Assembly (NCBI GenBank): GCA_913019905.1
Contig: CAJVZD010000001.1
Span: 168,176 to 232,175, forward strand
DNA: 64,000 nt
Origin: an uncultured Cellvibrionales bacterium
Lineage (GTDB): Bacteria; Pseudomonadota; Gammaproteobacteria; Pseudomonadales; Dasaniaceae
Direction of reading: 5' to 3'
The translations under genes were made by a program, and so were the position numbers. Numbering within the stretch: the first letter of the stretch is position 1; every line of letters starts with the position of its first letter. Positions 38,394 through 42,961 of this stretch are shown here, piece after piece. The notes under the pieces are model-generated. The model saw only the letters and a list, made by a program, of their open reading frames with translations, had not been told where the DNA came from and did not search any database.

Positions 38394-39962
38394 TTAGCGC
38401 ACAATGGTTACGGTATCTAATACCTGACCTTTTTCATTTATAAAGCTTGCGGTGAGCTCTGCTGCGCCAGCGTCTAATACTACGGAGCCCAACTCTGCCA
38501 AGCCGTGGCGCTGTTGTGGGTCCGCTTTTTGGACAATATGGGCTGGGTGATCGAGTTTACCTTTGCCTAAACTGACTTTACCGGAGCTACCGGCGACTGT
38601 GTAAACAACTTTGTCATCTTTGTGACTGTTAGCGCTGATTTGTGGGTAACTCTCATCGCCATTGCCTCTGGAGGGTTGTCCCATTGCATTTAATTCAGTA
38701 TGTTTTTCTGCTACAAAGCTGTTGGCGTCGCCGGTATGCCCATGTAGATAAAACGAACGTTCATAGGCGTGGCTATGGCCACCGTAAACAAGGTCAACAC
38801 CATAATCTTCAAAAACAGGCGTAAATTCCAGTCGCATATCAACAATAGGACTGTCTATACCCAAGTATCGCGATGGTGCTGTATCGGAATCATGACTGCC
38901 TTTGGTATAGGGAGGGTGATGAAAAATGACAACAGTCCAGCTTTGATTATTGCTACTTAAATCGCTGACAAGCCATTGTTTCATGGCTGCTCGCTGTTGT
39001 TCGTCGCGAGCAGTTAACTGGGAATCCAGACTGACAATGTGCACGTTGCCGTAGTTGAATGAATAGTATTGCTCATTGCCACTGGGAACGCCGCCGACTT
39101 CGCCTTGAGTAGGTAGGGTGAATATATCCAGATAAGGAATTCGGCCAACACCCTCACTCTTTTTACCGAGATAAGCATCAGGATCAGACGAAGTGCTGGC
39201 GCCCGGAAAGTATACTAGCCCTTTTTCCGGATGTTCTATGGCGCCCATACCCATTTCATGGTTGCCGATAGTGGGCCACGTGGCTGCTTGACCGAGCAGT
39301 TCTGTGTATAGGTCAAAGACGGCGCCCTGCCATTGATCATCAGTTCCGGCGACATAGGCGTTATCGCCCAACATTAAGAGCAAGTCGAGAGGTTCGTCGT
39401 TTTGTTGCGCGTTGTAATTCAGGTAGCCATCCATCACTGCTTTTGCTTCGCCGGGGTGAGTAAATACGCCCGGTACGTATTGTTCTGTGGCAGTGCCAGA
39501 ATCACCGATAATCCAGATGTGGATATTATTGTCTGACGGTAATTTTCCGGTTTCAGGAGCGGTACGAAAGAAAAGGGATTTGTCGCTGTAGGGCCCCACG
39601 GAATAATAATATTGGGTGTCTGCAACGAGACCTTTAAACCCCGCTTCTTTGTGATTGCTCTCGGTTGATTTCGCGGCAACGCACATTTGTGCCAGCTTCA
39701 AGTCTTCGACAGATTTGGCCACACAGGATTTATCGCTTTCTCCTCGCCATTTGACTATCGCGCTATTGCTAGATATTTGCTGTAAGAATAAACGGGACGG
39801 ACGCCTTATACCCGATTCAGCTGCTGTGGATTCGGCTCTTGTGAGTTCGGTTGTGCTGGTCTCTCGTTCGACCGCGGCGGTATCTTGCGGATTGTTTGTT
39901 CCGCAGGCAGTTAATATGGTGAATGCAGCTGTTGCCGACAATAATTGAAAACGACGTCGCAT
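38394..39962 (-). CDS. Lipoprotein metallophosphoesterase, purple-acid-phosphatase-like
   Basis: The protein is 522 aa from ATG 39962, which has GAGGG seven bases upstream; the frame is open further but without such a site. A lipobox (ILTAC-GT) follows the signal peptide, so the protein is lipid-anchored. After a fibronectin-type-III-like segment come the metallophosphatase motifs in order: GDSG, LGDNAYVAG, GNHE, HHPPYTKG and GGHSHAYERS. These are the two-metal ligands of the purple acid phosphatase group. It probably acts on phosphate esters outside the inner membrane; substrate unknown. Confidence 0.82.
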   Translation of the reverse strand: MRRRFQLLSATAAFTILTACGTNNPQDTAAVERETSTTELTRAESTAAESGIRRPSRLFLQQISSNSAIVKWRGESDKSCVAKSVEDLKLAQMCVAAKSTESNHKEAGFKGLVADTQYYYSVGPYSDKSLFFRTAPETGKLPSDNNIHIWIIGDSGTATEQYVPGVFTHPGEAKAVMDGYLNYNAQQNDEPLDLLLMLGDNAYVAGTDDQWQGAVFDLYTELLGQAATWPTIGNHEMGMGAIEHPEKGLVYFPGASTSSDPDAYLGKKSEGVGRIPYLDIFTLPTQGEVGGVPSGNEQYYSFNYGNVHIVSLDSQLTARDEQQRAAMKQWLVSDLSSNNQSWTVVIFHHPPYTKGSHDSDTAPSRYLGIDSPIVDMRLEFTPVFEDYGVDLVYGGHSHAYERSFYLHGHTGDANSFVAEKHTELNAMGQPSRGNGDESYPQISANSHKDDKVVYTVAGSSGKVSLGKGKLDHPAHIVQKADPQQRHGLAELGSVVLDAGAAELTASFINEKGQVLDTVTIVR

Positions 39963-40059: not shown

Positions 40060-41139
40060 TTACAAAGCATTAACGTTTACGGTGTTTACGAAATCCTTGC
40101 GCGGTGGAAGTTGACTGGCAGTATTACCGCTCAAAACATCACGACCTTCGAATAGACGTGAGCGTGCTTTAATTTCTTCTATCCGACCGATATCATTGTT
40201 GCCCCCACTCAAAATGCATACCACGTGTTTACCGCGAATATCGTTTTTTATTTCTTCGAGTGCTGCGATACTTAAGGCGCCGGCCGGTTCCGCAATGATG
40301 GCGTCATCGTTATAGAGTTTTAAAATTTCACTACACGTTCGGCCCTCCGGCACGGTAATGATTCTGTCCAGCGTTTTTTGACAGATATTGAAACCTCTAT
40401 CCCCTACCCGCTTTACCGCTGCGCCGTCGGAAAAAGTATCTATGTCTGTTAGAGTTGTATTGATGCCGGCAGCAATTGATTGCTTCATTGCGGCGGCTCC
40501 CGCGGGTTCGACCCCGATTAACCGTGTGCGTTTGGACAGCTGTTGAAAATAGGATGAGACACCTGCAGCAAGACCGCCTCCACCGAGTGGAAAGAGCAGG
40601 TAATCGATCGGATCCGAGGCATCTTCGAAGATTTCCTTTGCCACCGTCGCTTGTCCTTCGATGACTTTCGGGTCGTCAAAGGGGTGGACTAATATGCTCC
40701 GGTGTTTCTTTTGATAAAGCTGGGCAGCAAAAAGCGCGGCATCAAAATTGTCCCCGCTGAGAACGATGTCGATGGTGCTTCCTCCGTATTTTCGAGTTTG
40801 ATAGATTTTTTGCACGGGAGTTGTCGTAGGCATGAAGATGGTGCCCTTAATACCGAGATTGGCGCAGGCGAAAGCAACGCCTTGAGAGTGGTTACCAGCA
40901 CTGGCGCAGACCACCCCGTGCCCTTTGTCCCGATTGGAGAGTTCAACCATCTTATTATAGGCGCCGCGAATTTTGAAAGACCTCACCACCTGTAAATCTT
41001 CTCGCTTGATAAATACTTTTGCTTCGTAGAGCTCGCTTAAACGAACGCTTTTTAGCAGCGGCGTGCGAACGGCGATACCATCAAGATTTTGAGCTGCGGT
41101 TTCTATGTCAGCGATGTTCGGGCTGTAGTCACTCATCAT
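40060..41139 (-). CDS. ilvA: Threonine dehydratase, short form with truncated regulatory end
   Basis: A 359-aa PLP enzyme that deaminates threonine to 2-oxobutanoate, the first step to isoleucine. The PLP lysine is Lys56 in SFKIRGAYN, the phosphate loop is GGGGL (186-190), and SGGNND closes the catalytic domain near 315. Short biosynthetic enzymes continue with an ACT-like domain beginning LKHYF..FPQRPGAL..FVNTVLGP. Here only a poor match to that start (QLPPRKDFVNTV) precedes two consecutive stops (TAA TGA). The regulatory domain therefore looks lost. The gene is preceded by an isoleucine-codon leader and terminator (41187-41334). ATG ATG at 41139/41136; GGAAA precedes. Confidence 0.85.
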   Translation of the reverse strand: MMSDYSPNIADIETAAQNLDGIAVRTPLLKSVRLSELYEAKVFIKREDLQVVRSFKIRGAYNKMVELSNRDKGHGVVCASAGNHSQGVAFACANLGIKGTIFMPTTTPVQKIYQTRKYGGSTIDIVLSGDNFDAALFAAQLYQKKHRSILVHPFDDPKVIEGQATVAKEIFEDASDPIDYLLFPLGGGGLAAGVSSYFQQLSKRTRLIGVEPAGAAAMKQSIAAGINTTLTDIDTFSDGAAVKRVGDRGFNICQKTLDRIITVPEGRTCSEILKLYNDDAIIAEPAGALSIAALEEIKNDIRGKHVVCILSGGNNDIGRIEEIKARSRLFEGRDVLSGNTASQLPPRKDFVNTVNVNAL

Positions 41140-41186
41140 ACGTTTCCGTTTTTCTAAATAGTTTTTCCTCTAACCGCGGGCAAAAA

Positions 41187-41212
41187 AAAACCCGCCGAAG
41201 GAGGCGGGTTTT
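41187..41212 (-). terminator. Attenuator terminator in front of ilvA
   Basis: On the minus strand AAAACCCGCC (41212-41203), loop TCCTTC and GGCGGGTTTT (41196-41187) form a ten-pair stem running into a tract of nine T. It lies 48 bases before the ilvA start codon and after the Ile-rich small frame. The CCCGCC arm can instead pair with GGTGGG at 41242-41237 inside the leader (one G-U pair), giving an antiterminator. Confidence 0.88.
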
Positions 41213-41220
41213 GATAATCT

Positions 41221-41233
41221 CGAGATTACAGGT
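41221..41233 (-). other. Palindrome between leader stop and terminator
   Basis: TAATCTCGAGATTA (14-base perfect palindrome, about 41215-41228) sits in the spacer between the leader stop codon and the terminator. It could form a small hairpin in the RNA that holds the antiterminator loop compact. Confidence 0.35.
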
Positions 41234-41298
41234 CAGCCCACCATTCTTCCGATGATAATAGGCATAATAATCTGTTGGCTGTTCACTGATGTATTCAT
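41233..41298 (-). CDS. Putative isoleucine-rich leader peptide of ilvA
   Basis: This is a 21-codon frame, ATG 41298 to TGA 41235-41233. The second half reads QQIIMPIIIGRMVG: five isoleucine codons (ATT ATT, then ATT ATC ATC) within seven positions. Ribosome stalling there for lack of Ile-tRNA would leave GGTGGG (41242-41237) free to pair with the terminator arm. Normal translation to the stop would cover it and allow termination. No Shine-Dalgarno is seen. The predicted transcript starts within a base or two of the ATG, so translation may be leaderless. Leader peptides of this kind are known for ilv operons; this one is inferred. Confidence 0.7.
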   Translation of the reverse strand: MNTSVNSQQIIMPIIIGRMVG

Positions 41299-41305
41299 TG
41301 GCGAG

Positions 41306-41334
41306 ATAATCGGCTATTAATTTTCGCGTGTCAA
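41306..41334 (-). promoter_or_regulatory. Promoter of the ilvA leader
   Basis: On the minus strand a perfect TTGACA (41334-41329), a 17-base spacer and GATTAT (41311-41306) resemble a sigma-70 promoter. Transcription would begin near 41299, next to the leader ATG. Confidence 0.65.
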
Positions 41335-41437: not shown

Positions 41438-42961
41438 TTATGCGGGCACTCGACTGATATCGTTATAGAACTTTTCTTTCAATTCGTTTTCTTCCCCGCT
41501 TGAAGAGAGCAGCGTTAAAAGAGGAATAGCTACTAGAGGAATGATGGTTGCCGAAAAAGTCGGGTCCTGCCATTCACCGAGCGACTGAGTTAACTCGTAC
41601 CAGGACTGTGCGAACCCGCCGGCCGTCGCATTGTCTACGCCTTTATATAATGTATTGAGTCCCCAGTGTGTTAAGCCGCCAGCGTACCCCGCCAGCATGC
41701 CGAAGAACGCCGCCTTCTCCGTGGTTCTTTTCCAATAGAAAATATAAGCGATCGCAATGGCTGGAGGGACGACCATAGCGAACCCCAATAATAATAACTG
41801 CAACACCGAAGAAATGTTTGCCTTCCAGGCAATGGTTGTTGCTACAAATCCATAGATAACTGTTGTGATCTTGTAGGCGTGCAAGCGTTTTTCGTCGGAA
41901 AAATCTTTTGACCCAGGAATCCAATCGTTCACAAACATGGTTGAGCTACTTAACAGGATTGGTGCTCCCGAGGAAATCAGCGCCCCAAGAATAGCGGCAA
42001 GTGCGATGCCGCCGATAAATGGTCCCGTGTCTGTCGCCAACTGCGTAATATAACGATAGCTACTCAGACCGCTTTCGGAACCATATTTTGCCAAGGCTTC
42101 TAAACCGATAAATCCTGCTAGCAGCGGCATAATTGCAGCCAAAATTCCGGCGAGAAAAAAGCCGGGTAACAAGTTGTCTTCCGTTCGAGCAGAGCTAGAG
42201 TAATTGACATAGACGGACGCTGCGGGGGTATGCAGAGTGGCAGAAAAAAATAAGGCAATGATCGTTATCCAGCCGATACCGGTAAAACTCCACCAGGAGG
42301 CCTGATCTTTGTCGGCAGCTAATAATGCCGCGTCCGTTTGGATTTTTAGATTTTCCCAGCCACCCATATCCTGCATTGCCATATAACCCACCAGTGCTAG
42401 CCCAAAGATGATGACGGTACAATGAATGATGTTTGTAATACCGGTTCCTTTCAGTCCACCGGTGGCTGTGAATGTAAGAATGACAATGCCGCCAAGATAG
42501 ACGCTATAGACAAAGGGTAATCCTGTAACGCCGCTTACGATCGAACCGATCACAAATGGTTCGATGATATTCACAATGAGATATTCTGTTTGCACGCAAA
42601 GACTGGCCAACCATTGGCAGCGTTTTGATCCGAAGCGCCGATCAAATATTTGTCCTGTACTTGATAGTTTTAAACGGCGGTAGGGAACAGCAAAAAAAAC
42701 GCCAACTAATAATAGCGCCAACAGAGAGTTAACCCCATACCAGAGATTCCCGATGCCGCTGACCATCACATCGCCAGCGACACCATAGGTACCTGCACCG
42801 CCGATACGTGTTCCTGCGACACCAGCGGCTAACATCCAAATACTCATATTCGAACTGCCGGTCGCCCAATCGGAAGCATTTTTATTCCCGCGATTGAGCA
42901 TAATTCCTATGATGGTAAATATGCCTAAGTAAACAATAATAACAACGATTGAAATATTCAT
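41438..42961 (-). CDS. Sodium:solute symporter family transporter
   Basis: A 507-aa protein with about thirteen membrane segments of the SSS fold. The N-terminal helix with NKNASDWATGSSNMSIWMLAAGVAGTRIGGA is typical, as is TATGGLKGTGITNIIHCTVI in the middle. The family uses the Na+ gradient to import sugars, amino acids, organic acids or vitamins; the substrate cannot be assigned. The gene is single, with 90 bases between its stop and the ilvA leader promoter. Confidence 0.85.
   Translation of the reverse strand: MNISIVVIIVYLGIFTIIGIMLNRGNKNASDWATGSSNMSIWMLAAGVAGTRIGGAGTYGVAGDVMVSGIGNLWYGVNSLLALLLVGVFFAVPYRRLKLSSTGQIFDRRFGSKRCQWLASLCVQTEYLIVNIIEPFVIGSIVSGVTGLPFVYSVYLGGIVILTFTATGGLKGTGITNIIHCTVIIFGLALVGYMAMQDMGGWENLKIQTDAALLAADKDQASWWSFTGIGWITIIALFFSATLHTPAASVYVNYSSSARTEDNLLPGFFLAGILAAIMPLLAGFIGLEALAKYGSESGLSSYRYITQLATDTGPFIGGIALAAILGALISSGAPILLSSSTMFVNDWIPGSKDFSDEKRLHAYKITTVIYGFVATTIAWKANISSVLQLLLLGFAMVVPPAIAIAYIFYWKRTTEKAAFFGMLAGYAGGLTHWGLNTLYKGVDNATAGGFAQSWYELTQSLGEWQDPTFSATIIPLVAIPLLTLLSSSGEENELKEKFYNDISRVPA

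Follow-up and report, generated by a model that had tools for sequence, protein, structure and literature searches.

The stretch of DNA analysed here, which we call the window, comprises 64,000 nucleotides (nt) from an uncultured Cellvibrionales bacterium of the family Dasaniaceae (assembly GCA_913019905.1, contig CAJVZD010000001.1, positions 168,176-232,175). On its minus strand, at 41334-41182, a leader element lies in front of ilvA (40060..41139), which encodes a short-form threonine ammonia-lyase of 359 amino acids (aa) with the catalytic PALP domain only. Also called threonine deaminase, this enzyme catalyses the opening reaction of isoleucine biosynthesis. Judged by its parts and by their recurrence in related genomes, this element is very probably a ribosome-mediated transcription attenuator that senses the charging of the isoleucine (Ile) tRNA, tRNA-Ile. 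The parts, their order and their conservation are read directly from the sequence, and it is from these that we infer the mechanism.

The leader element and its gene

All features of the element are on the minus strand. It opens with a predicted sigma-70 promoter that matches the consensus, TTGACA-17-GATTAT (41306..41334), in which the -35 box (41334-41329) and the -10 box (41311-41306) are separated by a 17-nt spacer. The predicted -10 box ends 7 nt 5' of the ATG (41298) of a leader frame of 21 codons plus TGA, MNTSVNSQQIIMPIIIGRMVG (41233..41298, stop codon at 41235-41233), and comparable frames are found at nine other short-ilvA loci. Five of the 21 codons specify Ile, and together with one methionine (Met) codon they make up the regulatory run ATT ATT ATG CCT ATT ATC ATC (41251..41271). 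Folding predicts that part of this region pairs with ATGGTGGGC to form a protector hairpin (1:2, 41236..41263). Segment 2, GGTGGG (41237..41242), is the complement, with one G-U pair, of segment 3, CCCGCC (41203..41208), which lies within the 5' arm of the terminator. A second short match, GAAG (41246..41249), pairs in the predicted duplex with CTTC of the terminator loop and lengthens the predicted antiterminator. The intrinsic terminator (3:4, 41182..41212) consists of the hairpin AAAACCCGCC-TCCTTC-GGCGGGTTTT (41212-41187) and a run of nine T (41190-41182).

The first-pass annotation of this DNA had located the promoter, the frame, the Ile codons, GGTGGG, GAAG, the hairpin and the T run, and all of them were found again on the minus strand, together with the two complementarities that it described. 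Its 'ten-pair GC hairpin' has the ten pairs, of which only six are G-C; the remaining four are A-T pairs formed with part of the run of nine T, four of them. The 48 bases that it gave between hairpin and ilvA need correcting: the hairpin ends 47 nt before the ilvA ATG (41139), and the T run 42 nt before it. The Rfam scan of the window returned no family over cut-off. A tyrosine-rich leader frame (DYYAYYH within a 72-aa frame starting at TTG) was considered and rejected, since in a relative (locus L039) this frame is broken by a stop, AGA TTA TGA, as judged by eye.

The product of the downstream gene matches NF006390 (462 bits) and TIGR02079 (445 bits), both over cut-off, and PF00291 (PALP) is its sole Pfam domain over cut-off. 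The C-terminal regulatory domain PF00585 was found in none of the 11 short IlvA scanned, namely that of the window, seven others of its type and three of a Pseudomonas type introduced below (L040 and L042 were outside the scan). The description of the gene as short-form is therefore borne out. Its description as a lone gene is accurate locally; genome-wide it does not hold, as the host carries a second, long ilvA (518-aa frame) on another contig. In a search of 5.8 billion proteins that considered at most 7,999 candidates, the three nearest relatives besides the protein itself, among the matches listed, are also short (355, 355 and 349 aa), and PF00585 is additionally present in 115 of the 120 best listed. 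In long IlvA, isoleucine inhibits the enzyme through the C-terminal regulatory domain. Because this domain is missing, the short enzyme would presumably not be inhibited by isoleucine, which would leave control to the RNA.

As we picture the mechanism, translation would begin with a first ribosome loading onto an almost leaderless RNA. When charged tRNA-Ile is plentiful, this ribosome would reach the stop codon and there cover GGTGGG, CCCGCC would pair with GGCGGG, and transcription would end. With charged tRNA-Ile in short supply, it would stall at codons 10-16, breaking the 1:2 hairpin and freeing GGTGGG, which would pair with CCCGCC and let RNA polymerase read on into ilvA.

Conservation at short-form ilvA genes

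We sampled 390 genomes of the same order, 105 of which gave an ilvA match at E <= 1e-75. Among the matches listed, ten ilvA frames (the window's included) are 339-383 aa long and all other listed frames are at least 464 aa; short forms matching more weakly than E 1e-75 would escape this listing. The nine other short IlvA share 44-54% identity with that of the window. The whole device, that is, an Ile or Ile/Met run, a G-rich segment 2 and a terminator, is present at all ten of these loci. The leader frames have 15-29 codons (examples from relatives are MITSDRASRSSSVARQIMMIIHTISRLVG, MTSLKTAQIIMIMSITERLSVG and MHTQNTQQQIIIIIPS), and a terminator of the GGCGG type ends 20-96 nt before ilvA. Each of the ten genomes also carries a long ilvA (frame of 511-557 aa).

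The first-pass annotation had proposed an alignment of relatives as a check; in it, Ile codons, G-rich segment 2 and terminator are kept together in ten cases out of ten, the window's included, and the outcome in relatives that would have refuted the claim was not seen. Its central claim, an isoleucine-dependent attenuator before ilvA, thus draws support both from the parts and from this conservation, and the mechanism appears very probable. This conservation is strong evidence, more so than any statistic from the single window.

A covariance model, R1, was built from six of the ten short-ilvA leaders. It scored the remaining four at 45.2, 42.2, 35.7 and 16.9 bits (the last being L043, E 0.35), and at 44 long-ilvA loci it found nothing above 16 bits (one of these, L014, has almost no upstream DNA). 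In the host genome it gave 13 matches up to E 10, with the window leader at 82.8 bits and the other 12 at no more than 25.8 bits; the window leader is the only strong R1 match in its genome.

Alternative pairings

In the window, the 2:3 duplex has a predicted energy of -13.9 kcal/mol, a modest result against dinucleotide shuffles (p = 0.046), and the fold of the whole leader has z = -1.77, with 8 of 200 shuffles as good. Alignment A5, fitted to a second model, R2, drew on 44 sources and had 45 rows, of which three spurious ones were dropped and 42 counted (L043 and L253 were below the E-value limit). Across these 42 leaders, pairing is kept in 244 of the 252 cells that make up the 2:3 helix, compared with 34-55% when it is slid by 1-4 columns. 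Its third pair is U-G in 29 leaders, C-G in six, U-A in six and unpaired in one, and the terminator pair that shares a base with it is G-C in 35, A-U in six and C-G in one.

The two structures were also compared by folding with a ribosome mask, using the 36 leaders in which the arms could be located (those of L168 and L204 were not located by the script). The 1:2 hairpin, of at least four pairs, formed in 34 of the 36. A ribosome stalled on the most favourable Ile codon, with the 3' arm absent, let the antiterminator (2:3, at least five pairs) form in all 36; a ribosome at the stop codon let the terminator (3:4, at least six pairs) form, again in all 36. All three pairings are thus supported in silico. 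The expectation that they would exclude each other agrees with these predictions, as the antiterminator uses the 5' arm of the terminator.

Relation to the Rfam family P9

The best Rfam match of the window leader is 'Pseudomonas sRNA P9' (RF00624), at 28.8 bits (E 1.3e-4) and below the gathering cut-off of 43 bits. The same model exceeds its gathering score at 13 of 39 related loci (3/19 + 10/20), including the short-ilvA loci L044 and L050. A search of 379 genomes of the order with the P9 model gave 32 places at E <= 1e-4. Fifteen of them are over cut-off, and every one is an Ile-codon leader directly before a gene on the same strand: ilvA in six cases (L239 with the gene partly masked), a kinase gene in six and an SgcJ/SnoaL gene in three. 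The 17 places below cut-off comprise 13 leaders, two that are not (L263, L264) and two without a locus.

In three genomes of one genus, which we call Pseudomonadaceae-like, a family name inferred from the P9 match, P9 precedes an ilvA of 337-344 aa without PF00585, and a paralogous ilvA with a 507-aa frame (72-73% identity) is present. In a midpoint-rooted tree of IlvA, these three Pseudomonas-type short proteins are nested among the long ones (100/99 with L020), and the window type, which includes two long branches, groups with the THD1 family (100/100 split). The placement of the two types implies that short forms arose at least twice.

On plasmid pZYPA1927 of P. aeruginosa ZYPA1927 (NZ_CP133752.1, L270:2479-2552), P9 reaches 89.8 bits; its frame of 21 codons is MTFATLLTRRSIITAIPAMAG, ending in ..RSIITAIPAMAG-stop. 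It precedes an SgcJ/EcaC gene, which overlaps an ilvA of 515 aa. Azotobacter chroococcum has a P9-like leader (39.0 bits, under cut-off) before genes for SgcJ and an ATP-binding protein. Identity as an Ile-codon leader is a likely explanation for the orphan P9 'small RNA'.

Other genes behind isoleucine leaders

The same layout is found before several other genes. These include ileS, the gene for isoleucyl-tRNA synthetase (IleRS), at L160, L168, L207 and L224, and a gene for citramalate synthase at L229 and L260 (the best NCBIfam match of L229 is NF042433, below cut-off). Apart from ilvA, the commonest gene behind an Ile leader encodes a P-loop kinase of about 171-179 aa that is weakly FlaR-like (NF005994, below cut-off), seen at 16 loci and at three more from the P9 search. 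Leader loci with this FlaR-type kinase are L165, L178, L193, L198-L206, L208, L209, L223, L228, L249, L251, L253 and L266-L268; L165 has no leader frame starting at ATG, and one starting at GTG fits by eye. SgcJ/SnoaL genes follow the leader at six loci, with TIGR02246 over cut-off at L180, SnoaL_3 at L162 and no NCBIfam match at L184. One further leader (L182:1501-1601) precedes a GNAT gene; here NCBIfam offers as best match NF040702, an IleRS-GNAT fusion model, with E 1e-17 and a score well short of the cut-off. Several gene names were assigned by eye: the kinases except L178, L203 and L208, SgcJ/SnoaL except L162 and L180, ileS of L224, citramalate synthase of L260 and aspartokinase of L189, the last being the apparent gene behind a thr-type leader caught in passing (Rfam Thr_leader, 46.5 bits, under the cut-off of 55).

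Two model searches were read place by place. One returned 47 places, of which 32 are Ile leaders (before ilvA in nine cases, kinase in 15, ileS in four, SgcJ/SnoaL in three and citramalate synthase in one), 13 are plain terminators and two were left unread (L174 and the opposite strand at the G131 site); each of the 28 places at E <= 2.1e-5 is a leader. The other returned 17 places, with seven leaders (one of them thr-type), eight that are not and two unread (L194, L195). At a looser limit there are matches in 133 of the 390 genomes, the weak ones mostly unread.

Kinase leaders also occur on plasmids of Vibrio fortis, V. pelagius and Vibrio sp. THAF190c, where R2 scores 40-41 bits before a gene annotated as adenylate kinase. 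The leader frames of V. fortis and V. pelagius read ..QRIIIIL, and none of the three Vibrio leaders has an Rfam match, P9 included, at E <= 0.01. An ACT-domain protein is encoded nearby on two of these three plasmids. A cyanobacterial relative (L269) gave no R2 match.

Genome G245 has Ile leaders both on citramalate synthase (L229/L265) and on its sole ileS over the family cut-off (L207). We considered whether the ileS leaders serve antibiotic resistance and set this idea aside: G336 does have a second ileS, but in G222 and G245 the leader-controlled copy is the only one over cut-off (G264 lay outside this check), and plain homeostasis therefore fits better.

Control loci and Flavobacterium

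With a strict terminator script, the only terminator-like site of the window is the leader terminator, and it is accompanied by the Ile frame (1/1). In the control set (131 loci, 996 kb), an Ile frame accompanies 4 of 62 terminator-like sites, and all four precede ilvA in Flavobacterium. The script is insensitive, recovering six of the ten short-ilvA leaders. The four frames (L125, L127, L137, L138; for example MKNLNNIIIAITIIAIQQ) belong to named species, lie 19-555 nt before ilvA and are associated with a CCTCCC/GGGAGG terminator. They look like real leaders. The Flavobacterium ilvA is 414 aa from its ATG, and Ile leaders on ilvA thus appear to reach beyond the Gammaproteobacteria and, by length, beyond truncated enzymes. 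A contig scan of named genomes returned mostly IlvA of Bacteroidota and Bacillota.

We had entertained, as a general rule, the idea that control has moved from protein to RNA. It was dropped in that form: Ile leaders precede not only short genes but also the Flavobacterium gene and the 515-aa ilvA of P. aeruginosa, so a gene need not have lost the regulatory domain to carry one. We retain such a shift as a suggestion for the short enzymes only.

Predicted promoters and leaderless geometry

In 38 leaders, promoters were scored for every spacing of up to 59 nt from the leader ATG. In 22 of them the top-scoring -10 box stops 6-8 nt short of the ATG, a count in which many of the kinase loci are closely related and hence not independent. 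By downstream gene, this geometry is seen in 2/10 leaders of ilvA (the window and a congener), 4/4 of ileS, 1/1 of citramalate synthase, 13/15 of the kinase and 2/6 of SgcJ/SnoaL, and in neither the GNAT (0/1) nor the thr-type leader (0/1). The mean promoter score peaks at distances of 6 and 7, and the Pseudomonas loci L236-L238 also fit by eye. In the window, transcription probably starts at the leader ATG or one base before it, and a leaderless leader frame may hold for much of the class.

Interpretation and alternatives

The window leader is likely to be one member of a P9-like class of Ile attenuators in the Gammaproteobacteria. We go further, with rather more belief than doubt, in proposing that this P9-class attenuator, largely leaderless, is a regulon module tied to tRNA-Ile charging across the Gammaproteobacteria. 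Its targets would be extra threonine deaminases (whose short forms arose on at least two occasions, with this leader each time), citramalate synthase, IleRS, an IleRS-linked GNAT, SgcJ/SnoaL proteins and the FlaR-type kinase, and P9 would be the terminated leader of an SgcJ-ilvA operon and not primarily a trans-acting small RNA.

Several observations weigh against an Ile attenuator of this kind. The first-pass annotation had called the leader purely isoleucine-tuned, which is not the case: a Met codon falls inside the Ile run, within the best eight-residue Ile window, in nine of the ten ilvA leaders, compared with none of the 15 kinase, 4 ileS and 6 SgcJ leaders. By eye, a convincing Shine-Dalgarno sequence is missing before most leader frames. 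The promoter and transcription start of the window are predictions, and the leaderless start seen by the first-pass annotation stands as predicted geometry in the window and its congener and fails in the other eight ilvA leaders, where the best promoter is out of register. Only 15 of 35 leaders have a 2:3 duplex energy at p<0.05 against dinucleotide shuffles (median 0.066), a shuffle that preserves the G-rich composition of the segments. The models used to collect the 42 aligned rows score the very columns that were counted, and this biases the conservation percentages upward; the base changes that preserve both pairings are better evidence than these raw figures. Finally, when no ribosome is present the terminator forms in every leader folded, and the switch must therefore depend on kinetics.

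Three other explanations have to be set beside the attenuator. The terminated leader might act mainly as a trans-acting small RNA, its small frame being incidental. Rfam files P9 under the type Gene; the accessible part of PMC2375449 cites Livny et al. 2006 for the detection of P9 RNA among the small RNAs of P. aeruginosa; and the accessible part of PMC7298713 describes a terminated attenuator RNA, rnTrpL of Sinorhizobium meliloti, as trans-acting. We nevertheless find this unlikely, because all 15 P9 matches over cut-off adjoin a same-strand gene and encode Ile codons, and the antiterminator pairing is kept. That an Ile-rich frame should adjoin, by chance, an ordinary terminator of the symporter gene upstream (41438-42961, same strand) is very hard to credit: a predicted promoter lies between that gene and the frame; the combination of frame, pairing and terminator is repeated at short-ilvA loci despite upstream coding ends that differ (by eye); and R1 finds nothing above 16 bits at the 44 long-ilvA loci.

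It is also conceivable that the nascent leader peptide stalls the ribosome together with an inhibitor, as happens in erm or cat leaders, so that the signal would be a translation inhibitor and not tRNA-Ile charging. Proline before a stop codon slows termination, and 12 of the 15 kinase-type leader peptides end in IIIIP-stop; the P-loop kinase and the IleRS-linked GNAT downstream could be detoxifying enzymes. Nascent-chain stallers usually keep specific residues, however, and the ilvA leader peptides have little in common beyond the Ile run, that of the window does not end in proline, and ilvA, citramalate synthase and ileS are isoleucine genes. We regard stalling of this kind as improbable.

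Comparison with known systems

The leader-peptide attenuators of ilvGMEDA, ilvBN and thrABC in enterobacteria are classical. With these and, as far as the accessible part of its description goes, with Corynebacterium ilvBNC, the leaders described here share a small frame with regulatory codons, a protector, an antiterminator and a terminator ahead of genes for amino-acid biosynthesis, and the thr-type leader L189 was caught by the same model search. They differ from the classical systems in having mainly Ile codons (with Met in most ilvA leaders), in targeting a single extra short ilvA and in a predicted -10 box that often ends 6-8 nt before the leader ATG. In the E. coli pheST attenuator, an aminoacyl-tRNA synthetase gene follows a leader frame with many codons for its own amino acid; compared by layout alone, the ileS leaders resemble it, with Ile in place of phenylalanine. 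P9 shares the order of AUU/AUC codons, G-rich segment and CCCGCC/GGCGGG-T; in contrast to it, the window leader is under the cut-off and is read here as a leader, whereas Rfam files P9 as an RNA gene. A precedent for the leaderless geometry, which here is predicted only, is S. meliloti trpL, whose RNA begins with the leader-frame ATG and may act as a leaderless mRNA according to the accessible part of PMC7298713; that system differs in using tryptophan codons and in belonging to the Alphaproteobacteria.

In the literature searched (CC-licensed papers in PMC), we found no Ile attenuator before ilvA, ileS or citramalate synthase and no account of P9 as an attenuator. The accessible part of a Halomonas ilvA paper (PMC13101641) reports minor transcriptional changes on isoleucine addition and does not contain the word 'leader'; that of PMC2965389 does not mention ilvA. 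The principle of attenuation is already known, and it is the gene set, the geometry and the P9 identity that did not turn up in this literature. What is added is a conserved class, its gene set, the leaderless geometry predicted for part of it and the likely identity of P9.

An orphan RNA family thereby gains a concrete, testable function. The class points to attenuation as a means of sensing Ile at individual genes for entry steps of the pathway (threonine deaminase, citramalate synthase) and at IleRS, and the shared control points to a role of the FlaR-type kinase, SgcJ/SnoaL and GNAT proteins in isoleucine or IleRS physiology. Its attenuators that are predicted to be leaderless also form a natural series for studying how ribosomes load at the extreme 5' end of an RNA.

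Downstream of ilvA, the window encodes a metallophosphoesterase (PF00149, 38394-39962). Its frame is listed from 40070, overlapping ilvA; by eye, the ATG at 39962, followed by a lipoprotein-like signal, looks the likelier start.
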